33,544 nucleotides of DNA from Eubacteriales bacterium (GTDB taxonomy: Bacteria; Bacillota; Clostridia; Christensenellales; MB2-83), in the NCBI GenBank assembly GCA_018385275.1, contig JAHAZM010000067.1:1-33544 (forward strand). The letters run 5' to 3'. The notes below the pieces were generated by a model that made no database searches, had not been told where the DNA came from, and saw only the letters and a program-made list of their open reading frames with translations. Positions 2,095-20,308 of the stretch are shown here, one piece after another; position 1 is the first letter of the stretch; each line of letters starts with the position of its first letter. Made by a program: the position numbers and the translations under genes.

Positions 2095-4026
2095 ATGGTA
2101 AAAATCCGGCGTAAGCGTGCGATCCTTGTCCGCAGCGCCCTTCTTCTTGTTCTTTCTCTGATTGTCGTCGTGTTCGCGGTAGTCGTGGACTCGAATCTTT
2201 CCTGGGGATGGTTCGCCAGCAACTCGAGCGTAACGGGAAACGATCTGCAGGTCGCCGTCAGAGCAGAAAACTGCGACCTGCTGGTCAGCCGCACCACGGA
2301 ATACGACCGTATGAAAGGAACGTCGCCGCTGACGCCCGTGCCGGTTTATACGGGCGTGCCCGAGCTGAAGACCGACTTTACGACGAACGGTTACAGCTTA
2401 ACGGCCGATTCGACAAGCGTGTCGCCCTTGGCCTTTGAACGGATCAACGAATATGAGGTCAACGAGCGCGATACGTATACCAATCAGATGCTCTCTACGC
2501 GGTTCCTGATGCCCGGCGCGTACGGAAAGCTGGAATTCTATCTGCGGCCGTGTCATCGCCGGATACACTTTCCGCGAGACGAGCGTCTATGCCGTGATGT
2601 CCGCGTTCAGCAACGGTACGAAAAACTACGTGATCTCCGATCTGAATCCTTCTCTGGCAAAGCTGTCGATCACGGACTCCAGCAGCCAGTATACCGTCAC
2701 CCTTCCCAACGGGCAGGCTGTGTACGTGCTGGGCGCGATCGTCAATTCCGGCGCGGCCGGCGCTTATGTGGCGCTGACGAATTTCTGGCAGGCCTACCGG
2801 GCTCATACGACGGTGCGCGGCGGCGCGGCGTATACGGGCGTGGGCACGGCTTCCGCGGGATCGGCAGTATCTACTCGGACGCGACGACGAAATATGCCGA
2901 CGACCGGGTCCATCTGAGGATCGATTCCATGACCGGGACCGGAAATCCCGCGATCGTTCTTCATATGAGTTTTACCGAGTATAACACTTCGTCTTACCGG
3001 GCGCAGTCCGGGAATACGCACGCTCCCAATACCCAATACGAGCCCAACATAAAATTTGCGAGCAACGCCGGCTACGGCTTGTTCAACCGTCTCGTTCAGA
3101 CCGGCTCCGACGGATACATCGAAGGGTTCATCCTCACCGGCAGCTATAATACCGATTACGTCCTGAACAGGACCGCCGACACAGCGACGACGGCTTACGC
3201 CGCGGCCGATATTCATGTCGCGCAGAGCTTTGCCGAGTTTGTTTCGGGAAATCTGGGAAGCGCGTTTGCCGAGGAGGGGAAGGATAAGTTTGAAATCAGC
3301 GCCACCGTCCGGCTGCTGTACAGAACGGCCGGCGCGGTTCCCGCGCAGTTCCCGGGCAGAAACAGCGACGAATTCAACCGTGATAACGGCGTGACGGTCT
3401 CGGCCGCGTCCAACATCGCGTTCTCCTCGACGACGACTTACAGTAAAAACTCGATCAATCTTGATGAAACGCCGTCCAGGTCGTATTATTCCGAAACCGA
3501 AATCGAAAGCGCGATGTTGAATCTGAACCCCATCGGGGATAGTATCGGCGACTTTACGGAGTTGGGTATCAACGCGCTGAACAATCCGCCGGAGCAGATC
3601 GATCTGCTGGCGGTTCTGGACATCACTTCGATCATCAGACAGATCGATTCGTACGATAACGCGTACGTGACGATCAAACTGCTGCAGAAGCAGAGCGACG
3701 GAACATACGGCAGCGAGCTGCCGATCGCCGATTATATCCCGACCCTGAAGGTCGGCGCCAATGACGCGACTAACGCAGGGACTTACTATTACGCGGTTGT
3801 CGACGACGACGATTTGGAGGATAACGGCGTCGAGATCACGCTCCCCGAGCTGCATCTGACCGTGCTGACGGGCGACGATTTTCAGACTGCCGGTTATACC
3901 TACGGAAACTTCCGCGTGGTGGTGTCGGTCGTTCTGCGCGACGGCACGAGCGAATGCGCGATTTCGCTGGCCACGAACTACGTCATCTATACGAACGCCA
4001 AGGTCTTCCCGAGCTACATTTCCTGA
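2095..4026 (+). CDS. Membrane-anchored surface protein with paired internal frameshifts
   Basis: Starts at ATG 2095 after AAAGGAG and reads 643 codons to TGA. The N-terminus is a basic stretch, a hydrophobic helix (about residues 11-31) and a WGWFASNSSVTGNDLQV motif like those after SipW-type signal sequences (TasA/camelysin-like). The rest is Ser/Thr/Asn/Tyr-rich and beta-like, typical of exported surface proteins. From about 2550 to 2860 the sensible protein (VIAGYTFRETSVYAV, then ISDLNPSLAKL, then AVYVLGAIVNSGAAGAYVAL) lies in the next frame, while the annotated frame gives Arg/Cys-rich nonsense for about 103 codons; at 2860 it returns. So there are two compensating indels, real or from sequencing. 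Expression is under the c-di-GMP-I riboswitch. The exact role (fibre, adhesin or pseudopilin-like) is not determinable. Confidence 0.75.
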   Translation: MVKIRRKRAILVRSALLLVLSLIVVVFAVVVDSNLSWGWFASNSSVTGNDLQVAVRAENCDLLVSRTTEYDRMKGTSPLTPVPVYTGVPELKTDFTTNGYSLTADSTSVSPLAFERINEYEVNERDTYTNQMLSTRFLMPGAYGKLEFYLRPCHRRIHFPRDERLCRDVRVQQRYEKLRDLRSESFSGKAVDHGLQQPVYRHPSQRAGCVRAGRDRQFRRGRRLCGADEFLAGLPGSYDGARRRGVYGRGHGFRGIGSIYSDATTKYADDRVHLRIDSMTGTGNPAIVLHMSFTEYNTSSYRAQSGNTHAPNTQYEPNIKFASNAGYGLFNRLVQTGSDGYIEGFILTGSYNTDYVLNRTADTATTAYAAADIHVAQSFAEFVSGNLGSAFAEEGKDKFEISATVRLLYRTAGAVPAQFPGRNSDEFNRDNGVTVSAASNIAFSSTTTYSKNSINLDETPSRSYYSETEIESAMLNLNPIGDSIGDFTELGINALNNPPEQIDLLAVLDITSIIRQIDSYDNAYVTIKLLQKQSDGTYGSELPIADYIPTLKVGANDATNAGTYYYAVVDDDDLEDNGVEITLPELHLTVLTGDDFQTAGYTYGNFRVVVSVVLRDGTSECAISLATNYVIYTNAKVFPSYIS

Positions 4027-7255: not shown

Positions 7256-7587
7256 GCTGCCGCGGACAGAACGGAGAAAGACCGCCGGAGTTTATAATTA
7301 TGCAAATATACAGAAAAAGTGCATAGCGTGGTTTTCATTTGACCGGGTCGTCCGATATTTTGCGGCTTTGTTTACTGCCGTCCACGACCGATGGTGGGGC
7401 GGACGGAAGGGTCGATAAATTTTTTCGCGGGGGACGGGGGCGCGCGTCCGGGCAGGAGAACCATATCTTGCGGTGCCGGAGATTTTCCCCACAAGTGATG
7501 GGCTTTTTGAATGGAAATGTATAAAAAATGCATAAGCGATCCTAACAAAACGATCAATCGGCGACCGGTTTTGATTGGAATTGCCGA
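7256..7587 (+). other. Intergenic region without a recognisable gene
   Basis: About 330 bases. No frame on either strand has a convincing protein, and no RNA family is recognised. It holds an isolated TATAAT (7293-7298) without a -35, an inverted TATGCA/TGCATA pair (7299-7304 and 7320-7325), a GC-rich stretch near 7385-7455, and an AT-rich run around 7515-7535. Confidence 0.5.
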
Positions 7588-7590
7588 TTG
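7555..7590 (+). repeat. Inverted repeat overlapping the -35, candidate operator
   Basis: CAATCGGC (7555-7562) and GCCGATTG (7583-7590) are exact inverted copies 20 bases apart. The right arm overlaps the -35 at 7588. GCGACCGG also occurs twice (7561-7568 and 7595-7602). It could be a repressor site for the downstream operon; no cognate regulator is present in the window. Confidence 0.4.
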
Positions 7591-7616
7591 CGTCGCGACC
7601 GGAACAGTGCTATAAT
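7588..7616 (+). promoter_or_regulatory. Promoter of the toroid-SipW-EAL operon
   Basis: TTGCGT (7588-7593), 17-base spacer, extended -10 TGCTATAAT (hexamer 7611-7616). Transcription would start about 25 bases before ATG 7647. Confidence 0.75.
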
Positions 7617-7646
7617 ACTAATATTAAATATTCTGAGGTGGCAACC

Positions 7647-9155
7647 ATGAGCATTCAGATCAAACCCGAAGATACCGCCGTTCCCGTTCGTCCCGCGCTG
7701 ATCAACGGTCAGCCGTTTTGGAACGGGAACGTTATGTTTTTCTTATACGTCCCTTCCTTTGATTTTGCCGAGGTGCCGGGCGCCGCGTCGTACCGCTATG
7801 AGGTCGTCGACGATCTGCACACGCGTCGTGTCTTCACGGCCGACGGGCCGCACGCGTTTCTGACGCCGGTCTGGAACGAGCTCCCCGCCGGTTTCGTCAG
7901 CGTCACGGTCTACGGGCTGGACGCCTCCGGCGCGCTGATCGCCGAAGCCGGCCGCCGCGTGTTCGTGAAAAAAGCCCCGTTCCGTCCCGGCGCATATCCG
8001 CCGGCCAAACGCGATTACGCGGAAACGGCGCGCATGATATTTGAAAACCGCTTTTCCATGCCCGAGGTCCGGGCGCTGATGAAGGGCAAGGAGCCCAAGG
8101 GCTTTAATTTCATCACCAAACAGCTCAGCGCGCTGATTGTCGGCGCGGCGCGCCGGGTGAAATCCTGCCCCGAAAAGAAGGAAGAATCCCTGAAACTGAT
8201 CCGCTGCGCGGCGGACTATCTGATATCGACGATGCTGCCGGCCGACGGACCGCTGCCGTATTTGACGCCGACGTACAACGCCGACGAAACCAATCCCGCC
8301 TGGGTCGGCACGATCATGCTGACCGAGCCGGTGACGGCCTGCAACGCGTATATCGACGCCTATCAGGCCACGGGCGATGAAAAATACCTCTCCGCCGCCG
8401 TTTCCGGCGCCGACACGTTGGTGCGCCTGCAGGGCGACGACGGCAGTTGGCCGCTGAAATTTTCCCTCGACGGCAAAGTCCTCGCGCCCAACCGCTGCCA
8501 GACGACGAATTTCTTCATGATGTTCGAGAAGCTCTACGGCGTGACCGGCGACGCGCGTTACCGGGAAACGGCGGACCGCGCGTTTGCCTATCTGGAGAAC
8601 GGGCCCCTGAAGGACTGGAACTGGGAAGGGCAGTTTGAGGATACGCCCGCGACCGCGCCGTATATGAATCTGACCAAGCACGACGCTTGTTCGACGGCGA
8701 TTTATATCCTCAAGCGCTATCCGGGCGATAAAAAACGTCTGGCGCAGGCGCGGGAACTGCTTCGCTTCGCCGAGGACGTGTTCGTTTTCTGGGAAAATCC
8801 CTTTACCGCCGGACGCGTGATCCGTCCGGAAAAGGGCAAAGGCTTCTACGATCATTATTGGGATCAGACGGGCTGGATCACGCCCGCCGTGGTCGAGCAG
8901 TTCGGCTGCTTCACGCCCGTCGACGCTTCCGCCGCCAAGCTGATCCGTACTTATTTGGCGCTCTATCAGGCCGAGCACAATCCGTTGGATCTGGCCAAAG
9001 CCCGCACGCTCGGCGACGCGGTGACGCGCATGACAGACGACGACGGACTGGAATCCACCTGGTGGTGTACGCCGCAGCTGCGCTTTGATATCTGGACCAA
9101 CTGCATGCTGGCTGTCGAGCAGGCTCTGGAAGAATTGATTGCGATTAAAGACTGA
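7647..9155 (+). CDS. Alpha/alpha-toroid (six-hairpin glycosidase-like) protein
   Basis: A 502-residue protein without a signal peptide. The first ~110 residues look like a beta-sandwich (FWNGNVMFFLYVPS, then YRYEVVDD, then SVTVYGLDASG). The rest is a series of helical hairpins with a LQGDDGSWPLKFS motif and Trp/Tyr-rich loops (WNWEGQFED, YDHYWDQTGW, TWWCTP). This is the look of alpha/alpha-toroid enzymes such as unsaturated-uronyl hydrolases, polysaccharide lyases and terpene-cyclase-like proteins. No catalytic residues can be assigned with confidence. ATG 7647 follows GAGGTGG. It is first in an operon, 15 bases before the SipW fusion, so a role in processing a surface polymer is plausible but inferred. 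Confidence 0.65.
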   Translation: MSIQIKPEDTAVPVRPALINGQPFWNGNVMFFLYVPSFDFAEVPGAASYRYEVVDDLHTRRVFTADGPHAFLTPVWNELPAGFVSVTVYGLDASGALIAEAGRRVFVKKAPFRPGAYPPAKRDYAETARMIFENRFSMPEVRALMKGKEPKGFNFITKQLSALIVGAARRVKSCPEKKEESLKLIRCAADYLISTMLPADGPLPYLTPTYNADETNPAWVGTIMLTEPVTACNAYIDAYQATGDEKYLSAAVSGADTLVRLQGDDGSWPLKFSLDGKVLAPNRCQTTNFFMMFEKLYGVTGDARYRETADRAFAYLENGPLKDWNWEGQFEDTPATAPYMNLTKHDACSTAIYILKRYPGDKKRLAQARELLRFAEDVFVFWENPFTAGRVIRPEKGKGFYDHYWDQTGWITPAVVEQFGCFTPVDASAAKLIRTYLALYQAEHNPLDLAKARTLGDAVTRMTDDDGLESTWWCTPQLRFDIWTNCMLAVEQALEELIAIKD

Positions 9156-9170
9156 CGACGGAGGGTTCTT

Positions 9171-10424
9171 TTGGATCTGAGTATTTATTTCCACAATGAG
9201 TGCATCGCCATATGTATGTTGCTCCTTATCATCCTTTTCGTACTGGAAGCCGGTAACCGCCGCGGTTCGGAATGGAAGCGCTATATTCCCGCGCTTTATA
9301 TTGTCGTACTGCTTTTCCTCACGATCGACGCGACGGTCTTCATCATTGACGGCGACGCGAATCTGATCGTTTTTCACAAGGTGATCCGGAGTATTTATCT
9401 GATCGGGCTCCCGGTCTTCGGGTGGCTTTGGCTCCGCTACTGCGCCGTGCGTCTGAAAAACCTGCGTTTCCTGCACGCGCCCGTGATGAAGGCCCTGCTT
9501 GCGCTGATCCTGACGGCTAACGCCGCGTTCGTCATCCTGTCGTGGCAGAGCGGCGACGTTTATTCCGTGACGGACAAGGGAGTGCACGTCCCGGGGACGT
9601 GGATCTGGCTTCCGACGATGCTGATGTATGGGCAGATGTTTTTCGCCGCGATCTGTTCGCTGATCGGAGCTTACCAGGCTAAAACGGTCACCGAGCGGCA
9701 CACGCTGCTGATGCAGGCGCTCCACATCGTCCCGCTGTTTGTGACGGGGTTTGTCCGTCTGCTCCTTCCGTCGGACATGATCGTGGTGCATTTCGGGTTC
9801 GTCGTGACGGCGCTGTTGGCGTTGTTTGTGGCGGGCTTTATCTCCAACCGCGTCAAAGGCAAGCCCATGTTTGTCTTCGGGTACTCCTGGATATGGGTGG
9901 AGACCGGCAGCATGGAGAACACCATTCCGGCGCGCAGCTACATCCTGATCAAAGCGCCCGATGACGCAGCGCATCTGGAGAAGGGCACGGTCATCACTTT
10001 CACCTGCAACGACAAATCTTCTGAGGTCTACGGTCAGTACGTGACGCACCGGATCGACGAGGTGGTCGCCGACGGATACAAGACCAAGGGCGACAACGTC
10101 ATCAGCGTTCAGGACAAATGGACGGTACATCCGGAGGACGTCCTTTCCGTGTATGTCGGGAATCTGCCGGTACTGACTTTCATGGGCCGGCTGCTGATGT
10201 CCGAGATCGGTTTCGTCGTCATCGTTATGGCGTTCCTGTTCATTTGCGCGTTCATTTATATCCCCGACATTATTAAAGCGGCCAAAGAGGGCAAGGAAGA
10301 GCCCGCCGCGGAAGCATTGAGCCAGGAAGAACTGGAGAGGCGTATCGCCGAGGAAGTCGAAAGACTGAAGAAACAAAACGACCTTTCCGCGCCGCCGGAG
10401 TCCCCGGACGGACGGGACGGATGA
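9171..10424 (+). CDS. 7TM sensor module fused to SipW-type signal peptidase
   Basis: A 417-residue protein starting at TTG 9171, six bases after GGAGGG. Residues ~10-226 form seven membrane helices with the pattern of the 7TM input module usually attached to GGDEF or kinase domains (YFHNECIAICMLL at the start; GDVYSVTDKGVHVPGTW before helix 5). Residues ~236-335 are an S26B (SipW/ER-type) signal peptidase: TGSMENTIP with Ser247, VTHRID with His293 instead of the bacterial Lys, and TKGDN at 305-309 with Asp315. One more helix (~346-366) and a Glu/Arg-rich coiled tail follow. SipW peptidases cleave TasA-like fibre proteins. Positive residues after helices 1, 3, 5 and 7 predict those loops inside, which would put the peptidase domain on the wrong side unless the topology differs from prediction. 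Confidence 0.82.
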   Translation: MDLSIYFHNECIAICMLLLIILFVLEAGNRRGSEWKRYIPALYIVVLLFLTIDATVFIIDGDANLIVFHKVIRSIYLIGLPVFGWLWLRYCAVRLKNLRFLHAPVMKALLALILTANAAFVILSWQSGDVYSVTDKGVHVPGTWIWLPTMLMYGQMFFAAICSLIGAYQAKTVTERHTLLMQALHIVPLFVTGFVRLLLPSDMIVVHFGFVVTALLALFVAGFISNRVKGKPMFVFGYSWIWVETGSMENTIPARSYILIKAPDDAAHLEKGTVITFTCNDKSSEVYGQYVTHRIDEVVADGYKTKGDNVISVQDKWTVHPEDVLSVYVGNLPVLTFMGRLLMSEIGFVVIVMAFLFICAFIYIPDIIKAAKEGKEEPAAEALSQEELERRIAEEVERLKKQNDLSAPPESPDGRDG

Positions 10425-10435
10425 TGGGAGGCCCT

Positions 10436-10663
10436 ATGTTCAGAAAGCTTACCCTGAAAAGGAACATCAGAAATTGCAAAAAGCGCATTGAGGCGCTTGA
10501 ATTCAAGCGCTCCCGGTCTCAGGCCGCGCTTGTCGAGGCGATCCTGACCCACACGACGCCGTCGGATCAGGAAACGGACTTTTTTAATAAATATACCGCC
10601 TGCATCGACGCCGAGCGTCAGCGCATGCATCGCTACATGGAGGAACTGGAAGCTGTTAAGTAG
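10436..10663 (+). CDS. Small coiled-coil protein
   Basis: A 75-residue, highly charged, fully helical protein (KKRIEALEFKRSRSQ; AERQRMHRYMEELEAV). I chose ATG 10436 because GGGAGG lies just before it; an in-frame ATG at 10421, overlapping the SipW stop as ATGA, is an alternative. It sits between the SipW fusion and the EAL gene in the same operon (22 bases before the latter). I do not recognise the family. It may be a small adaptor that binds one of its neighbours. Confidence 0.6.
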   Translation: MFRKLTLKRNIRNCKKRIEALEFKRSRSQAALVEAILTHTTPSDQETDFFNKYTACIDAERQRMHRYMEELEAVK

Positions 10664-10685: not shown

Positions 10686-12962
10686 ATGAAGATTTTCTTG
10701 AGCAAACACGGCAAGGAGCTGATCCTTGGCGTCATCATACTGGTATGCTTTATCTGCTTGATCAACGTCGTGGCGCACGTTCAGAACTATACGAGTTCGC
10801 TGGACACCCAGTCGGTGGAGAAGGCGTCTTTTTACGCGTACGCGCAAAAAGCTCGTTTGAACAATAACGTCGAACGGCTCTACGATATGGCCAAGGTCAT
10901 CCGGCACAGCATCGAAGTCTGCCGTGATTATGAATCGATGCAGAACGCAGTGCGCGCCGTTCCCGATATCATCGGGCGCGACAACGCGGATTACGTCGGA
11001 CTTTGCTATTTCCACAACGGGCAGCTGTATGATTCGGACTTTGAAAAATACGCCGGTTATCCGGAGCTTCTGGCGCTGGAGACGGCGGAAGAAGACGCTA
11101 CGTCGAATCTTTTCCAGTATAAGGACCGCATCATGTCCATCGGCGTTTCCGTTCCGGTAGAAAGCCCGTATATGGACAGACTGGTGCTGATTTACGGACG
11201 GACCGCGCTTTCCGATTTCATGTACGACGATCCGTCGCAGGTGACGGAAAGCTGCCGTTATTCGGTTTTCACTCTTTTCTGCAAGCATGACGGCGTGATC
11301 CTGGAGCGCGTCGTCAACCGGGACATCTTCCGCATCAGTACGGAGGCCGTGCAGGAGGGCGTTCTCCGCGACCTCATCACCGGCAACAGCGATTATAAAA
11401 CCGCCACTCAGTTTATCAATACCGGCACATCCGGCAGTCTCGAGCTTCATATCGACGGCGTCTCTTATGTGCTGATCGTGGAGAGCATGGGCGCGCAGAG
11501 CGGAAACGTGTTCGTTCTGAATCTGTTCCGCCTGTCGGATATGTATCTGGACGGATACAACCTGGTCAATCTGATCTGGGGCACGCTCTGCGTATTCTTC
11601 GCGCTGCTGGTCATCCTGAGCATTTATTTGCTCGTGAGTCAGCTGAGCATGCACCGCAAGATCTTTGATCTGAGCACGATCAACAAACAGCTCAACTGCC
11701 CGACGCTTGTCAAATTCGAGCGCGACGCGGGCGAGATCCTGACGGCTAACAAAGCGACCCGTTTTGCCATCATCATCGCCCGGTTCAAGAATTTCAGCTA
11801 CATCAACGAGCGCTTTGGAGAGGATATGTCGTTGGCGGTACTGAAATACGGCAACAATATCATCAAAGGCAGCTTGTCTCTGAGCGAGACGTACGCTTAC
11901 GGCTCCGACGGCGAGTTTTATCTGCTTTTCCATTACCGCGAGCAGAAAACGCTGGTCGACCGCCTGAACGGGCTTTGCCAGCGCGTGGCGAAATTCCCCG
12001 ACTTTGACGATAAAAACTATAAACTCGATATGGTCATGGACGTATACGAGATCGAGCGCGACGTCAATCAGTCCGTTCAGATGATGCTCAACAAGGTCGT
12101 GACGGTCCGCAACATGGCGATCAACAACGCCGGCGCGAAGAACATCACGTTCTATACCGAGATTTCCCGCGACACCTACCTCAAGAAGGCCGAGATCGAG
12201 GGTACGATGGAGCAGGCGCTGCGCGACGCGGAATTCCATATCTTCTATCAGCCCAAATTCAACTTTGAGCGAAAGACCGTCGACGGCAGCGAAATCCTGG
12301 TCCGTTGGTTCGACGCCAAAAACGACCGCTACCGTCAGCCCGACGTGTTCCTGCCCATTTTCGAAGAAAACGGCTTTATCGTCAAGATGGACCATTTCGT
12401 CTTCTTTAAAGCATGCGAAAACGTCATCTATTGTCAGAACAACGGCGTGCCGGTTTATCCCATCAGCGTCAACGTGTCCCGCGTGACGGTCATGCAGCAG
12501 GATTTCGTCGAATACTACACGCGTATCAAACAGAAGTTCAATATTCCGAACGGGTTTGTGACGCTGGAGTTTACCGAAAGCTTTGCCTATGAAAACTACG
12601 AGTATCTGGCCACGATGGTCGACCAACTGCACCGGGCGGGCTTTATCTGTTCGCTGGACGACTTCGGCACGGGTTACTCGTCCTATAACATCCTCAAGAC
12701 GCTGGACATGGACGAGATCAAGCTGGATCGCTTCTTCATCGGCAAGGGATTGTCCGACGAGCGCGACCGCGTGATCCTGGACGGCGTGATCAAGATGATC
12801 AAAAACCTCGGCATGAAGGTCACGCAGGAAGGAGTCGAAACCAAGGAAGACTACGAGAAACTGCATAAACTCGGCTGCGATACCATCCAGGGATACTATT
12901 TCGCTAAGCCGATGAAATTCGTCCATTACTGCGAATTTGTGGCGACGAACTTCCCGAAATAA
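10686..12962 (+). CDS. Membrane EAL-domain c-di-GMP phosphodiesterase with degenerate GGDEF
   Basis: A 758-residue protein. Helix 1 (about 11-30), an extracytoplasmic Cache-like sensor region (about 31-290), helix 2 (about 293-316), a GGDEF-type domain (about 335-490), then an EAL domain (about 500-755). The GGDEF signature is SDGEF (407-411), so cyclase activity is unlikely. The EAL domain keeps its metal and catalytic residues: EIL at 536-538 in place of EAL, Asn596 in NVS, Glu628 and Glu631 in EFTE, DD at 658-659 in LDDFGTGYSS, Lys679, Glu715/Glu718 in EGVE, and Gln735. It should therefore hydrolyse c-di-GMP to pGpG. Last gene of the operon. It may set c-di-GMP levels sensed by the riboswitch at 1918, but that link is inferred. 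Confidence 0.93.
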   Translation: MKIFLSKHGKELILGVIILVCFICLINVVAHVQNYTSSLDTQSVEKASFYAYAQKARLNNNVERLYDMAKVIRHSIEVCRDYESMQNAVRAVPDIIGRDNADYVGLCYFHNGQLYDSDFEKYAGYPELLALETAEEDATSNLFQYKDRIMSIGVSVPVESPYMDRLVLIYGRTALSDFMYDDPSQVTESCRYSVFTLFCKHDGVILERVVNRDIFRISTEAVQEGVLRDLITGNSDYKTATQFINTGTSGSLELHIDGVSYVLIVESMGAQSGNVFVLNLFRLSDMYLDGYNLVNLIWGTLCVFFALLVILSIYLLVSQLSMHRKIFDLSTINKQLNCPTLVKFERDAGEILTANKATRFAIIIARFKNFSYINERFGEDMSLAVLKYGNNIIKGSLSLSETYAYGSDGEFYLLFHYREQKTLVDRLNGLCQRVAKFPDFDDKNYKLDMVMDVYEIERDVNQSVQMMLNKVVTVRNMAINNAGAKNITFYTEISRDTYLKKAEIEGTMEQALRDAEFHIFYQPKFNFERKTVDGSEILVRWFDAKNDRYRQPDVFLPIFEENGFIVKMDHFVFFKACENVIYCQNNGVPVYPISVNVSRVTVMQQDFVEYYTRIKQKFNIPNGFVTLEFTESFAYENYEYLATMVDQLHRAGFICSLDDFGTGYSSYNILKTLDMDEIKLDRFFIGKGLSDERDRVILDGVIKMIKNLGMKVTQEGVETKEDYEKLHKLGCDTIQGYYFAKPMKFVHYCEFVATNFPK

Positions 12963-14002: not shown

Positions 14003-15337
14003 ATGCAGAATGTCTTGACAATTATCTATTATATCCTTTTTGCCGTCGTAGAGATTTATATTCTTTCGACGGGAATATTGGCGATCATCGGCTTGTTTCC
14101 GCATCGGCAGCGTTATGCCATGCGGGCGGATGAAACGCGCTTCTGTGTCTTTATTCCCTGTCATAACGAAGGAGCCGTCATCGCCTCCACCGTGGCCGAT
14201 CACGCCCGTATCTGCTATGACGCGGACAAGTTCGATCTGTATTATATTGCCGATAACTGTACGGACGATACCGCCGAGCATATCAAGGACGCCATCGCCC
14301 TTACCGGGCGGACGAATCTGCATCTGCTGGTGAGGACGGAGACCGATCCGACGAAGCGCGGGAAGCCGCACGCTCTGCGTTGGGCGATGGACAAGCTGGA
14401 AGAGGAGGGCGGCTTCTACGGTCGCTACGATATGTTCATGATCCTGGACGCGGATAATTTTGCCGATAAGGATATCCTGCGGCATATCAACAGCCAGGCT
14501 CTGAGCTACCCGGCCGAAAAACGCCCCGCCGTGATCCAGGCGTATCTGGACAGCAAAAACTGCGACAGCCTCGTAGCCCGCGGTTATTATACCGGCTATC
14601 GGGTCTCCAACCGCTGCGCACAGGCGTCGAGACATTTCCTCGGGCTCAATCCGGCCGTCGGCGGCACGGGTTTTGCCTGTTCCACGGCGTTTCTGCGGAA
14701 AATGGGCGGATATACCTGCCGCTCGCTGACGGAGGATCTGGAGCTTCAGACCATTGCCACCCTGATGGGAGAGCGGATCGTCTTCAACGGGAATACCCGT
14801 GTTTACGACGAAAAGCCCACGCGTTTCAAGCAGTCGCTGATCCAGCGGATCCGCTGGTCGCAGGGACACTGGTATAATTTCTTCAAATACGGCGGACGGA
14901 TGCTGATCCGGGCTTTCGATCCGCGTCGGCCGCGCGCCATGGGCCGTCGCCTCGATATGGTCGTCTATCTGGCGACCATGCTGGTGGTTTTCCTGACCGT
15001 GCTGATGCCGCTGTACACGGGACTGCTGATGCTGCTGGGTTATCCGATCCCGCCGATCCCGGAACCGTTAGGGACGGTAAATCTGGTGCTGGGCGCCGTT
15101 ACGGCGGTGCTGGTGATTCCCGTTACGGCGCTGTATGACGGAACGCAGCGGGAGAAGCGCCGGATTCTGATCGATTTTCTTCCCAACGTCCTGGCTGTAC
15201 TGCTCCTGTCTGTCATTGTGACGATCGCGGCCGTTGCCGGGCTGTTTTTGTGCGGCAATCAGAAAACTTGGCGCAAAACGTCGCATTGTGTCGTGAGCAT
15301 GGAGCGACCGATGGTTGCCGCAGAGCAGAACAAGTGA
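14003..15337 (+). CDS. Membrane glycosyltransferase, family 2
   Basis: A 444-residue protein with an N-terminal helix (about 8-30), a GT-A catalytic domain and three or four C-terminal helices. Motifs: FIPCHNEG (50-57), ADNCTDDT (83-90) for UDP-sugar binding, LDADN (148-152; the DxD metal motif), LTEDLELQ (242-249) carrying the acceptor-side acid, and QRIRWSQG (281-288), the Q/RxxRW signature of processive enzymes such as cellulose, hyaluronan and poly-GlcNAc synthases. No PilZ domain is present. It probably polymerises or transfers a sugar at the membrane for an envelope polysaccharide or glycolipid. Start ATG 14003 lies downstream of a good promoter. Sugar and product cannot be read from sequence. 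Confidence 0.85.
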   Translation: MQNVLTIIYYILFAVVEIYILSTGILAIIGLFPHRQRYAMRADETRFCVFIPCHNEGAVIASTVADHARICYDADKFDLYYIADNCTDDTAEHIKDAIALTGRTNLHLLVRTETDPTKRGKPHALRWAMDKLEEEGGFYGRYDMFMILDADNFADKDILRHINSQALSYPAEKRPAVIQAYLDSKNCDSLVARGYYTGYRVSNRCAQASRHFLGLNPAVGGTGFACSTAFLRKMGGYTCRSLTEDLELQTIATLMGERIVFNGNTRVYDEKPTRFKQSLIQRIRWSQGHWYNFFKYGGRMLIRAFDPRRPRAMGRRLDMVVYLATMLVVFLTVLMPLYTGLLMLLGYPIPPIPEPLGTVNLVLGAVTAVLVIPVTALYDGTQREKRRILIDFLPNVLAVLLLSVIVTIAAVAGLFLCGNQKTWRKTSHCVVSMERPMVAAEQNK

Positions 15338-15363
15338 CATATCGGCAGGTAAAAAGATCGGAC

Positions 15364-15397
15364 GCAAGGGTCGATTGCGAACCCTTGCTTTTCTTTT
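15364..15397 (+). terminator. Intrinsic terminator of the GT2 gene
   Basis: GCAAGGGT (15364-15371) pairs with ACCCTTGC (15381-15388), followed by TTTTCTTTT. The stretch 15398-15540 after it shows no convincing gene on either strand. Confidence 0.75.
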
Positions 15398-15540
15398 ACC
15401 GGGGCCGGCTGCTTTTCCGGGCGTGCGTCGCCTTTTTCAGCGCGATAAACGGCGCTTCCGCCGGTTTGAGCCCTTCTATGACGATTCGTTCTCTCGCAGA
15501 CTGCCGCAATTGCCCGCGGCGGTCTTTTTTGCGGTTTTTG

Positions 15541-15569
15541 TTTACAACTGGTCTGGGATATGTTAATAT
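15541..15569 (+). promoter_or_regulatory. Promoter of the 12-gene acyl operon
   Basis: TTTACA (15541-15546), 17-base spacer, TAATAT (15564-15569) with an extended TGT. The start would be near 15576, giving a leader of about 46 bases. It is the only clear promoter seen before 27907 on this strand. Confidence 0.65.
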
Positions 15570-15621
15570 AAATAATATATTTAAAATCAACTTTTATATC
15601 TTTTGGGATTTTCGACAGACG

Positions 15622-17574
15622 ATGAAGAGAATGACCGGTTTGGGACAATACAAAAGCGTCGACAGTTTCGTCAAGGATAAACTGGCGGTTTTTGACGTTG
15701 CGAACAAAGATTTTGCCGCGCTGTTTGAACTGATGTTCCGCGAAAAAGAGAACGTCATGTACGAATACAGCAGCGGCTATCGTATTATCAAAAAGACTTA
15801 CGCGGAGGTATACGACGAACTCCTGCGCCGCGCCGAAACGCTGCGCCTCCGCTTGTCCGATCTGCCGGCCGGTTCCGTCGTCGGTTTGTATATGGACAAT
15901 AGTCTTCTCTGGATCGAACTGTTCTGGGCGATCCTGTTGTGCGGTTACGAGCCGCTCCTCCTCAATCTGCGCGTCAGCGACGAATTGCTTGCTCGGGCGA
16001 TTGCCGACGGCGGCGTGCGGGCCGTTGTTTCGGACGGCCGTGATTTTGCGCCTTTGCCGACGCTTTGCGCTTCGGAGATCGCGCCCGCGGACGCGCCGCT
16101 CCAAAGGATTACGCCGGGGCAATTCGTTTGGGTCATGTCGTCGGGTACGTCCATGAGCCTCAAGCTCTGCGCTTACGGAGCAGAGGAGTTCTATTATCAG
16201 ATCTGCGGGAGCATGGAGATTATCCGCCGCTGTCGGGCCATCAAATCCCATTGCGACGGAGAACTCAAACTGCTGACGTTCCTGCCGTTCTATCACGTCT
16301 TCGGCCTGATCGCCGTCTATATCTGGTTTGCGTTCTTTTCGCGGACTTTCGTTCAGCTCAACGATATGGCGCCGCGCACTATCCTCAATACCGTCAAGCG
16401 TCATAAGGTCACGCATATTTTCGCCGTCCCCCTGCTGTGGCAGACCGCTTACGAGCAGACGATGAAAACCGTTCGCGGCCGGGGCGAAAAGACGATGAAA
16501 AAGTTTCGCCGCGGCCTGGCCGTTGCGGAAGCGCTGCACGACGTCCCCTTTCTCGGGCCGCTCTTTTCGCGCGTCGCTTTCCGCGAAGTGCGCGCCGGGC
16601 TTTTCGGCAAGAGCATCCGTTTCCTGATTACCGGCGGGAGCGGGATCTCCCGTCAGACGCTGGCGTTTTTCAACGCTGTCGGTTATCGGCTGGCCAACGG
16701 CTACGGCATGACGGAGATCGGGATCACTTCGCTGGAATTGAGCCGCCGGAAAAAATATCTGCTCGAGGGATACGTCGGTTCTCCCATCACGAATGTGGAA
16801 TACCGTCTTAACGAAGACGGAGAGCTGCTGGTTCGCGGCCGCGCTACCGCGCGCATCATCGTGGAAAACGGCGTGCGCAGCGTGCGCGCGCAGGACGACT
16901 GGTATGACACGCACGATTTGGCAGAGGAAAAAGACGGCCATTATCGGATTCTGGCGCGCCGGGACGACGTCATCGTCACGACCAACGGCGAAAACGTCAA
17001 TCCCTTTTTCCTCGAGCCCGCCTTTACGATGCCGCACGTCCGCGGCGCCTGCCTGATCCGCAGTCGTACCGACGACCGTGTTACGCCTGTGCTGCTGGTT
17101 TCCGTAGAACGGTTCCTCGGCCGCGAGGCGCTGGCGGTCCTGCGCGAGCGGGTCGACGCCGTCGCGGTCTTACACGGTTTCCCGCACGACGGCCGCATCG
17201 TCCTGATCACGGATCCGCTGCTGGCTGAGGGCGAATTCAAGATCAATCGCCGACGCCTGGCCGACGATTACGATTCCGGACGGCTGCACACGGCACAGGC
17301 CGGGAACACCGGAACGGGCGAGACCGTCGACGATCCGCTGTTCAGAGAATTGAGGCTGTTGTACGCGATGGCGCTGGAACGCGACGAACAGAACGTCGGT
17401 ACGGAAACGGACTTTTTCCTGGAAGAGAACGGCACGAGTCTGGCATGGTTCGCGTTGGAGGCGCAGATCCGCGACGAGATCGGCGTCGACGTGGGCGGGC
17501 GGAACCTGCGCAGTCTCATGCAACTCTACCATTTTGTCAAAGAGGAAAGGAACCGTGTGGATACGGCTGTTTAA
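15622..17574 (+). CDS. AMP-forming acyl ligase fused to a carrier domain
   Basis: A 650-residue protein with an adenylate-forming (ANL) domain (about 1-565) and a C-terminal acyl/peptidyl carrier domain (about 568-650) whose NGTSL motif offers Ser~605 for phosphopantetheine. ANL motifs: GYGMTE in the middle, YDTHDL (usually TGD), and GEFKINR carrying the catalytic Lys. The ATP P-loop is degenerate: SSGTSMSLK (173-181) instead of SSGTTGxPK. FLPFYHVFGL and the long insert resemble long-chain acyl-CoA/acyl-ACP ligases. It probably activates a fatty acid or aromatic acid and loads it on its own carrier domain, unless the P-loop changes abolish activity. I chose ATG 15622; 15631 is the alternative and neither has a strong ribosome site. 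First gene of the operon. Confidence 0.8.
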   Translation: MKRMTGLGQYKSVDSFVKDKLAVFDVANKDFAALFELMFREKENVMYEYSSGYRIIKKTYAEVYDELLRRAETLRLRLSDLPAGSVVGLYMDNSLLWIELFWAILLCGYEPLLLNLRVSDELLARAIADGGVRAVVSDGRDFAPLPTLCASEIAPADAPLQRITPGQFVWVMSSGTSMSLKLCAYGAEEFYYQICGSMEIIRRCRAIKSHCDGELKLLTFLPFYHVFGLIAVYIWFAFFSRTFVQLNDMAPRTILNTVKRHKVTHIFAVPLLWQTAYEQTMKTVRGRGEKTMKKFRRGLAVAEALHDVPFLGPLFSRVAFREVRAGLFGKSIRFLITGGSGISRQTLAFFNAVGYRLANGYGMTEIGITSLELSRRKKYLLEGYVGSPITNVEYRLNEDGELLVRGRATARIIVENGVRSVRAQDDWYDTHDLAEEKDGHYRILARRDDVIVTTNGENVNPFFLEPAFTMPHVRGACLIRSRTDDRVTPVLLVSVERFLGREALAVLRERVDAVAVLHGFPHDGRIVLITDPLLAEGEFKINRRRLADDYDSGRLHTAQAGNTGTGETVDDPLFRELRLLYAMALERDEQNVGTETDFFLEENGTSLAWFALEAQIRDEIGVDVGGRNLRSLMQLYHFVKEERNRVDTAV

Positions 17575-18205
17575 CGCTTTTACCAAAATTACCGCCTGGC
17601 CGCTGCAGAAGCTGATTTTCCGCACGCGTATCCTGTATGAGGACAAATCCGTACAGTCCCGCCGCATCCGAGGCGCGGCCATGCTGATCTCCAATCATAC
17701 GTCGGTGTTCGACTACGCGATCTGGCTCTTCGTTTTCTGGAGTCGTACGTTGCGCGTTCAGATGGCCGAGGTATTGTTCCGCCGCAAACTGCTGGGGCTG
17801 TTCCTCCGGCAGATGGGAGGGATCTACGTCGATCGCGACGGGCGAGATCTGTCGTTCGTCGCCAAATCCGTGGACATCCTCAACGCCGGCGGCGTGGTCG
17901 GAATTTTTCCGGAGGGACGTCTGCCCCGGCCGGGAGAAGAAAGACCGCTGCCGTTCAAAACCAGCGCCGCTTATATCGCCCTGCAGACGGGATGTCCGAT
18001 CATCCCCGTTTACACCGACGGGTCGTATTTTTGCCGGAAACGCGCTTCCGTCATCATCGGGACGCCGATCCTGCCGGAGGAAGCCGTCGGACAGACGGAT
18101 GAGGAAAAGATCGTTTCCCTGACCGGGATTTTTCGCGCCCGTATCGTGAAACTGGGAGAAGAATTGCATGAGTCGCTCGGAAATCAACGCCAAAAGTCCG
18201 CATAA
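17555..18205 (+). CDS. PlsC-like acyltransferase 1
   Basis: A 216-residue member of the lysophosphatidate acyltransferase (LPLAT/PlsC) family, which moves an acyl group from acyl-ACP or acyl-CoA to a lysolipid at the inner membrane face. Block I NHTSVFD gives the HX4D catalytic pair, block III FPEGRLPR binds phosphate, and block IV is PIIPVY. A hydrophobic N-terminal segment (about 8-25) suggests membrane association. Start is GTG 17555 after GAGGAAAGG; the gene overlaps the ligase by 20 bases, indicating translational coupling. It is short of the ~240 residues common for PlsC. The acceptor may be lysophosphatidate or another lipid. Confidence 0.88.
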   Translation: MWIRLFNAFTKITAWPLQKLIFRTRILYEDKSVQSRRIRGAAMLISNHTSVFDYAIWLFVFWSRTLRVQMAEVLFRRKLLGLFLRQMGGIYVDRDGRDLSFVAKSVDILNAGGVVGIFPEGRLPRPGEERPLPFKTSAAYIALQTGCPIIPVYTDGSYFCRKRASVIIGTPILPEEAVGQTDEEKIVSLTGIFRARIVKLGEELHESLGNQRQKSA

Positions 18206-18803
18206 TTATATATTCTACTATTTCGTCAAGTATACCGCCGCGCTGCCCGGTTTGATCTGGATGCGGCCGAAGATCCTTTTCGAAAGCGAAGCGGCCGCTG
18301 AGCGCATCAGGGGCGGCGCGATCCTCATCGCCAATCATATGGGGTTTTTCGATCCTGTCTATATGATGTTCGCCGTGTGGTATCGCCGTCAGCATTTTGT
18401 CTGCCTGAAAAGCTTTTTTGAGGGCAAGGCCGGCTGGCTGTTCCGCCAGTTCCATTGTATCCCGATCGATAAAAACAATTTCGGCATGGGTTCGTTCCGC
18501 GCCATCATCGACGAGCTCAAAAAGGACGAAGTCGTGTCCCTGTTTCCGGAAGGGAAAGTCAACGACGGCAGCGGCGAGCTGGCTGCTTTCAAGTCCGGCG
18601 TGGTGCTGATGGCGCTTCGCTCGGGCAAACCCATCATCCCGATTTACGTAAGACCCAAAAAGCATTGGTACGAGCGCCTGCGCGTGATGATCGGAGAACC
18701 GATCCGGGTAGAAATGCCCGCGGTGTCTTTTCAGAAGATCGACGCGTTTGCCGCTCTGCTTCACGATAAAGAAGAACGTTTAAAAGAATTGACGGGAGGA
18801 TAA
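18168..18803 (+). CDS. PlsC-like acyltransferase 2
   Basis: A 211-residue paralogue of the preceding gene, overlapping it by 38 bases. Motifs are NHMGFFD (HX4D), FPEGKV and PIIPIY; HCIPIDKN replaces the GGIYVDRD of the first copy. The two proteins differ through most of their length, so they probably act on different acyl chains or positions and are not a recent duplication. Start ATG 18168 follows GGGAGAAG. The tandem pair could acylate both positions of one lipid backbone. Confidence 0.88.
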   Translation: MSRSEINAKSPHNYIFYYFVKYTAALPGLIWMRPKILFESEAAAERIRGGAILIANHMGFFDPVYMMFAVWYRRQHFVCLKSFFEGKAGWLFRQFHCIPIDKNNFGMGSFRAIIDELKKDEVVSLFPEGKVNDGSGELAAFKSGVVLMALRSGKPIIPIYVRPKKHWYERLRVMIGEPIRVEMPAVSFQKIDAFAALLHDKEERLKELTGG

Positions 18804-18808
18804 CGATC

Positions 18809-20308
18809 ATGCAGACGCCAGGCAGAGAGATTTTCCGCAAGTATACGACAGAAGAAACTTTCGAGCTCATCAAGGAGTACGACACGGTCGCGCAGATGTG
18901 GGCGCATTGCGCCGAAAACTACGCCGATCGCACCGCGATCATCGACGAAGGCACGGAGTACAGCTTTGCCCGTCTGGATGCGGACGTGAGCCGTTTCCGG
19001 TCGGCCGTCGCCGCTGCGCTGCCCGGCCTGACCGGCGCGCGTATCGGCATTTTCGCGCCCAATTCCTATGATTTTGTCAAAGCCTTTCTGGCGGTGACGA
19101 CGCTGGGTCATACGGCCGTTGTCCTGCCGCCGCAGCTGCCGCCGCCTGCCGTCGCGGGCTGCGCCGCGAAATTCGGTCTCAAAGCGCTGGTCTGTTATCC
19201 GGGCCCGGCCGCCGAAAGCGTCGGCTGTCCCTGCGTGGACATCTCCTCTTTGCCGGACGCGCCGACGCCGGCCGCGGAATGCCGCGCCGAGACGCCCTGC
19301 GTCATCATGATGACAGGCGGCACGACCGGAAAGAGCAAGGGCGCGCTGCTGTCCAACGGCGCGGTCCTGCAGGGAACGGTCAACGGCTGCTACGGGTATC
19401 GGGACGTCTTCGGCCAGCGCTATCTGCTGATCCTGCCGCTGTCCCATGTTTTCGGCTTGATCCGGAATCTGATGACCTCGCTCTATACGGGCAGCACGCT
19501 GATCGTTTGCCGCAACAACAAGGATATGTTCAAGGATATCGCCGTTTACAAGCCTACGATCCTGGTCATGGTGCCGGCGCTGGCTGAAATGGCGTTGATG
19601 CTGTCGAAAAAGTTCGGGCGTAATATGCTCGGGGACAGCTTGAAATATATCATTTGCGGCGCCGCGGCGGTGTCGCCTTATCTGGTGAGCGAGTATCATA
19701 AACTCGGCGTCGCTCTGTTCCCCGGCTACGGTCTGACCGAGTCGGCCAACCTGGTTTCGGGCAATCCCGAGATGATGATCCGGCCCGAATCCGTCGGCCT
19801 GATGTACCCGCATCAGGAGTACAAAGTCGTCGACGGCGAGCTTTGGCTGCGCGGCGCAAATATGCTCCTCGATTACGTGGGAGAGCCGGAAGCGGCTTAT
19901 ACGCCGGACGGCTGGTTCCGCACCGGCGACCTGGTCCGCTTCGATGAGGACGGATTCCTGTATATCGTCGGCCGCATCAAGGAGATCATCGTTCTTTCCA
20001 ACGGCGAAAACGTCTCGCCCGCCGAGGTCGAGGCTCATTTCAACGCCGTATCCCTCATCCAGGACAGCCAGGTCTTTGAGGACGTCGCCGAGAACGGCGC
20101 ACACATTCTGGCGCTGGAGGTCGTTCCCCGCGTGACGGAGATCGCCGGCCTCGCTCCGGAGGAAGCCGGCCGCCGTATCATGGAAGCGCTTCAGAAAGTC
20201 AATAAGGAACTGCCTGCCTATCAGCAGGTTCAGCGCATCACCATCCGGCAGAGCGACTTTGAGCGCACGCCGAGCATGAAGATCGTGAGATATAAAAAAT
20301 GCAACTGA
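18809..20308 (+). CDS. AMP-forming acyl-CoA/acyl-ACP ligase
   Basis: A 499-residue ANL enzyme, five bases after the preceding gene, with GGGAGGA before ATG 18809. It is canonical where the first ligase is not: MTGGTTGKSKG P-loop, GYGLTES, GWFRTGDLV, GRIKEII, NGENVSPAEVE, and SMKIVRYK at the C-terminus with the catalytic Lys. It forms an acyl-adenylate and transfers the acyl group to a thiol. The gene for a free acyl carrier protein overlaps its 3' end by 10 bases, so that carrier is the likely acceptor. The chain or acid recognised is unknown. Confidence 0.9.
   Translation: MQTPGREIFRKYTTEETFELIKEYDTVAQMWAHCAENYADRTAIIDEGTEYSFARLDADVSRFRSAVAAALPGLTGARIGIFAPNSYDFVKAFLAVTTLGHTAVVLPPQLPPPAVAGCAAKFGLKALVCYPGPAAESVGCPCVDISSLPDAPTPAAECRAETPCVIMMTGGTTGKSKGALLSNGAVLQGTVNGCYGYRDVFGQRYLLILPLSHVFGLIRNLMTSLYTGSTLIVCRNNKDMFKDIAVYKPTILVMVPALAEMALMLSKKFGRNMLGDSLKYIICGAAAVSPYLVSEYHKLGVALFPGYGLTESANLVSGNPEMMIRPESVGLMYPHQEYKVVDGELWLRGANMLLDYVGEPEAAYTPDGWFRTGDLVRFDEDGFLYIVGRIKEIIVLSNGENVSPAEVEAHFNAVSLIQDSQVFEDVAENGAHILALEVVPRVTEIAGLAPEEAGRRIMEALQKVNKELPAYQQVQRITIRQSDFERTPSMKIVRYKKCN

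Follow-up and report, generated by a model that had tools for sequence, protein, structure and literature searches.

Signal peptidases are generally regarded as constitutive enzymes. The locus described here raises the question of whether such an enzyme can be placed under the control of a membrane receptor, and on which side of the membrane it would then work. The window that was analysed is a 33,544-nt stretch of DNA from the draft genome of an uncultured Clostridia bacterium, and one of its open reading frames (ORFs), at 9171-10424, had been read in an initial annotation as a signal peptidase fused to a seven-helix (7TM) module of a type normally found with signalling outputs. Our analysis has confirmed that the ORF encodes a 7TM sensory module (residues 1-220) and a SipW/S26B signal peptidase (residues 204-404), and homology searches with controls bear out both halves. 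The start codon is TTG, located 15 nt beyond the preceding gene and with GGAGGG upstream of it, and the 3′ end overlaps the next gene (Table 1). An AlphaFold2 model shows seven helices followed by a beta-rich peptidase domain, an eighth helix (TM8) and a tail helix, with a mean pLDDT of 77.4 and a pTM of 0.58; its confidence is low around the seventh helix (TM7), where alignment depth is lacking.

Table 1. Positions of the features discussed, numbered from the first letter of the window
Feature	Position	Strand	Basis
7TM-SipW fusion ORF, 417 aa	9171-10424	+	single uninterrupted reading frame
7TM sensory module, residues 1-220	9171-9830	+	sequence homology, 7TM profile, AlphaFold2 helices
Shared hybrid helix, about residues 204-224 (sensor TM7 = peptidase TM1)	9780-9842	+	overlap of two profile alignments
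SipW2-type S26B signal peptidase, residues 204-404, including TM8 and conserved charged tail	9780-10382	+	NCBIfam, orthologue profile, tree
80-aa basic coiled-coil-like protein	10421-10663	+	RSQAALV.AIL motif; between SipW2 and EAL genes
Membrane sensor, degenerate GGDEF + EAL	10686-12962	+	Pfam EAL 3e-54, GGDEF 5e-4; synteny
Candidate SipW-type substrate, TasA-like export signal ending SWGWFASNSSVTGNDLQVAV	2095-4026	+	N-terminal pattern, BLASTP

Pfam gave no match to the N-terminal half, even at E=10, and homology was therefore tested with purpose-built profiles; a sequence search of the PDB gave no useful match. A sequence search of 396 genomes of the order recovered proteins of 370-390 aa that share the 7TM region and continue into GGDEF, with direct homology to the 7TM part at an E-value of 7.7e-8 (G166). 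The best match in the class search (E 2.6e-13, G504) was to a protein with a GGDEF domain, while one order-level relative has a Cache-like region together with GGDEF and another relative of the module has a SpoIIE/PP2C output. A profile made from eleven 7TM relatives, with the query left out, scored the query at 96.7 bits over residues 7-220, spanning all seven helices. The controls, comprising 400 shuffles (half of which preserved helix and loop compositions separately), the reversed sequence and four other proteins of the window, scored at most 7.2 bits. Based on these comparisons, the module is a homologue of the 7TM region found at the N-terminus of 7TM-GGDEF, Cache-like-GGDEF and SpoIIE-type proteins. 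The initial annotation was thus correct about the type of module and its usual outputs, and the N-terminal half does match a 7TM sensor profile, although not one of Pfam's. In a fold search, all of the matches listed (50 from the PDB) were 7TM receptors or GPCR-like bundles; the best E-value (2.7e-3) was weak, and TM-scores of no more than about 0.36 (query) and 0.48 (target) are of weak significance. The nearest known systems on this side are the 7TM-GGDEF diguanylate cyclases of Bacillota (e.g. L071, L026 and L029), which share the N-terminal module with its length, loop charges and conserved positions; however, their output is a GGDEF domain and that of the window protein is a peptidase.

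The C-terminal half matched the NCBIfam SipW model NF046067 (E=4.4e-19, residues 211-375) and TIGR02228, the archaeal/ER-type signal peptidase I (E=4.8e-13), in both cases below the curated cut-off, and Pfam Peptidase_S26 left only a trace (0.071). A SipW2 profile made from eleven standalone SipW orthologues gave a domain score of 188.8 bits over residues 204-404. Ser247, His293 and the TKGDN motif had been placed correctly in the initial annotation, and the catalytic set is conserved, with Ser247, His293, Asp308 (within TKGDN, 305-309) and Asp315 invariant among the relatives in the alignment. Since the 7TM and SipW2 alignments have one helix in common, a single segment serves both as TM7 of the sensor and as TM1 of the peptidase, a feature that had been overlooked. 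The protein shares with SipW/ER-type signal peptidase I (MEROPS S26B) the Ser-His-Asp site, sequence over the whole peptidase domain, the C-terminal helix and the tail. It differs in its sub-threshold family scores, in the 7TM module that stands in place of a single N-terminal helix and in the reversed charge bias of the first peptidase helix. Because seven helices precede the peptidase domain and the charge bias predicts the opposite orientation, we class the protein as SipW-derived and not as a standard SipW. A separate LepB-type signal peptidase is encoded elsewhere in the genome, and the fused enzyme thus need not be the housekeeping signal peptidase.

The fusion is a derived form. A maximum-likelihood tree built from 51 SipW sequences places the peptidase of the window within a 12-member clade (support 100/99), the SipW2 clade, whose other 11 members are all standalone. 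No fusion was found in 61 relatives, in 396 genomes of the order (searched with the N-terminal half) or in 391 genomes of the class and 398 of the phylum, sets that overlap in part and among which no genome of the same family was drawn. A scan of a contig collection covering genomes of 84,980 species with the fused protein alone gave no fusion, and a second scan of that collection recovered ten standalone orthologues of the peptidase half and again no fusion; both scans require short near-exact peptide matches, by which distant fusions could be missed. The possibility that this architecture is the norm for SipW in the clade, which would have refuted the initial annotation, is accordingly rejected. 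Long-ORF SipW matches in L066, L067 and L068 were ordinary SipW proteins, and L124 carries a different multi-helix S26 fusion, a reverse-strand ORF of about 400 aa in which about eight helices (by eye) are joined to an S26-like peptidase domain. Our literature searches, which covered open-access papers, turned up no description of a 7TM module fused to a signal peptidase. The fusion is known from a single draft genome in 80 contigs that is 87% complete.

Four further candidates (L122, L123, L126 and L127) proved to be fusions of another kind, in which a receiver domain precedes SipW. This is clear for L122 (Response_reg 1.2e-8, SipW 8.1e-45) and by inspection for L123, while L126 (6.5e-4) and L127 have weaker receiver-like starts. 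They share with the window protein a regulatory domain at the N-terminus of a SipW peptidase. In contrast to it, they place a soluble cytoplasmic receiver ahead of TM1 and raise no conflict of topology. Judging from these proteins, a regulatory module has been joined to SipW more than once, and independently, in Bacillota.

The gene also has an identity that the initial annotation had missed: it is the SipW2 of a conserved SipW-McrB-DUF2357-SipW-EAL operon. Around the standalone orthologues, the conserved order is SipW1, a McrB-like AAA protein, DUF2357, SipW2, the 80-aa protein and the EAL sensor. In 10 of the 11 orthologous loci SipW2 comes directly after the McrB-like AAA and DUF2357 (McrC-like) genes and before the neighbouring EAL sensor gene. 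McrB was assigned from a weak NCBIfam match (3.1e-5) and DUF2357 from Pfam; the McrB-like proteins of these loci have an N-terminal hydrophobic/coiled-coil part. The second SipW is found upstream wherever the contig reaches, those of L137 and L139 starting too late to tell. Operons of this conserved type, with 80-aa and EAL genes, lie in L072 (81-8570), L134-L141 and L143, and the 80-aa ORF is conserved in L073, L136, L137, L139, L140, L143 and L077. The window retains SipW2, the 80-aa gene and the EAL gene in the conserved order, and the DDFGTGYSS and QEGVET motifs of the EAL protein look intact by eye. Neither a McrB-like AAA gene nor a second SipW was found in the 87%-complete genome, and both have likely been lost from it.

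These operons resemble CoCoPALM systems, in which McrBC homologues occur with signal peptidase family proteins and whose study their authors left for later work (eLife 2024, PMC11090510). The transmembrane/coiled-coil McrB and the signal peptidase neighbours are shared with the SipW, McrB-like, DUF2357, SipW operons of the standalone orthologues, whereas the window's genome differs from CoCoPALM in that no McrB-like or SipW1 gene was found there. The term "c-di-GMP" is absent from the main text of that paper (PMC11090510), and the EAL and 80-aa members of CoCoPALM-like operons may be unreported. Our results link an EAL sensor and a small protein of coiled-coil-like character with operons resembling CoCoPALM, a type of system whose function is unexplored, and they place a TasA-like secreted protein near such operons.

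A candidate substrate is encoded in the window itself. The export signal at the start of the 2095-4026 protein ends in SWGWFASNSSVTGNDLQVAVRAENCDLLVSRTTEYD. In L135 and L138, proteins encoded roughly 4 kb downstream of the peptidase gene have SFAWFSMNSSVDHSGMQVVVSSDAVDILIERSSSEYD and SFAWFSSNRAVRQSGMNIIVSTESIDLLVDRNDEYE, respectively, which by eye is a clear match. BLASTP related the 2095-4026 product to a substrate-like protein of L074 (3e-4), and no curated family model of NCBIfam or Pfam recognises it. SipW peptidases typically act on the signal peptides of TasA/camelysin-like proteins. TasA, which has an aromatic residue after its cleavage site, is processed by SipW (PMC10269814), and in C. 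perfringens secretion and polymerisation of the BsaA filament need SipW (PMC7395162). Around 2480-2900, the 2095-4026 ORF is arginine-rich and unlike its flanks, while an ORF in another frame (2594-2917) reads as a normal secreted protein; the region has the look of two frame changes that cancel each other, whether genuine or introduced during assembly.

With these observations in hand, the explanation that we favour, with evenly balanced confidence, is that the fused protein is a signal peptidase coupled to a sensor and acting on TasA-like secreted proteins, with the signal relayed through the shared TM7. The short lysine-rich cytosolic N-terminus of SipW2 and the first part of its TM1 would have been replaced by a module from the 7TM-GGDEF family. 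The sensor would bind a signal, either within the membrane or outside it, and its movement would be transmitted by TM7 to the catalytic serine, which lies about 20 residues beyond that helix. Maturation of secreted filament or matrix subunits, such as the 2095 product, would then depend on the signal through gated cleavage. The 7TM module may substitute for the McrB/McrC-like input found beside this peptidase in other lineages, and the EAL sensor encoded nearby points to coordination with the control of matrix formation by c-di-GMP. In favour of this explanation we count the domain homology with its controls, the invariant active site, membership of the SipW2 clade, the conserved gene order, the candidate substrate, the presence of LepB, the recurrence of regulatory inputs to SipW and the use of the same module to drive GGDEF and SpoIIE-type outputs. 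Signal-controlled processing of exported proteins, as first suggested for this ORF, gains support from the candidate SipW-type substrate in the window and from the receiver-domain-SipW fusions in other Bacillota, and is plausible, though we infer it. If true, it would connect a signal from outside directly with the maturation of matrix or filament proteins. Counted against it are the occurrence of the fusion in one genome, a lack of support for selection on the fused form and for a ligand site in the 7TM module, and the charge pattern of that module together with the loss of positive charge ahead of the first peptidase helix. The shared TM7 poses a sharp question of topology.

TM1 of SipW crosses the membrane from the inside to the outside, as is established for signal peptidase I. 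From the cytoplasmic output domains of the sensor family we infer that its TM7 runs from the outside to the inside. As the two directions are opposite, one of them must have changed in the fused protein. Loops 1-2, 3-4 and 5-6 of its 7TM part carry 4, 3 and 2 Lys/Arg residues (nine in total), and the N-terminus and remaining loops carry 0, 1, 1 and 0 (two in total), a bias close to that in six 7TM relatives and an N-out pattern. In addition, the stretch of up to 15 residues before TM1 has a net charge of +4 to +8 in ten SipW2 orthologues (the eleventh, L139, was left out of the count) versus 0 in the fusion, and the 15 residues after TM1 have 0 to +2 versus +3. Because of the loop charges and this lost positive cluster, the charge pattern predicts a peptidase domain in the cytoplasm, contrary to what is usual for the family. 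The NRVKGK stretch right after TM7 was considered as proof of orientation and rejected, since the standalone orthologues are also positive after TM1. In contrast to the 7TM part, the charged tail (EEVERLK, within a conserved E.V.RLK pattern) and the residues flanking TM8 resemble those of the SipW2 orthologues, where the tail should be cytoplasmic. The positive-inside conflict noticed in the initial annotation is therefore real and can now be expressed in numbers, but it goes beyond what sequence can settle. From the cytoplasm, a peptidase would be unable to cleave signal peptides at the outer leaflet; for the fused enzyme to act as a signal peptidase, its catalytic domain must lie outside, contrary to the bias of its 7TM loops.

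Accepting the charge pattern as it stands leads to a tentative second explanation, that of an inner-leaflet protease with its N-terminus outside and under the control of the sensor. The enzyme would then have ceased to be a signal peptidase, and its target would be either itself or a partner in the cytoplasm or at the inner leaflet, with the 80-aa protein and the EAL sensor as possible candidates. The nine-to-two bias and its counterpart in the relatives, the missing N-in cluster before TM1, the parity of seven helices and the cytoplasmic nature of the GGDEF and SpoIIE outputs of the same module are all consistent with this explanation. The family pattern of TM8 and the tail argues against it, as do the TasA-like candidate substrate and the conservation of the Ser, His, Asp and other peptidase residues as in ordinary signal peptidases. 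To our knowledge it is also without precedent, as we know of no cytoplasmic S26B protease. That a 7TM receptor fusion with inverted topology turned an export enzyme into a receptor-gated intracellular serine protease is a somewhat more doubtful proposition still.

It is unlikely that the 7TM part is a mere membrane anchor or remnant, with the peptidase either constitutive like any SipW or decaying after loss of the McrBC-like genes. The restriction of the fusion to one genome and the missing McrB-like and SipW1 partners would fit such a reading. However, the protein retains all seven helices, conserved 7TM positions such as D53 and a complete catalytic set, without stops, and a plain anchor would not need seven helices instead of one. 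An assembly chimaera, in which two genes of a metagenome-assembled genome were joined in frame, is very improbable: one draft genome of 80 contigs without a second example could be so explained, but the join is in frame, mid-contig and within aligned helices of both families, GC is steady at 0.52-0.59 across the gene, and spacing to both neighbour genes is tight.

Two other parts of the window may be mentioned. The protein encoded directly upstream of the fusion (7575-9155) weakly matches pectate lyase (Pfam 1e-5) as well as other sugar-active enzymes. Further downstream, at 15250-20308, two AMP-ligase-like and two acyltransferase-like proteins, recognised by reading only, are encoded in a row and perhaps form a lipid or arylpolyene-like pathway.
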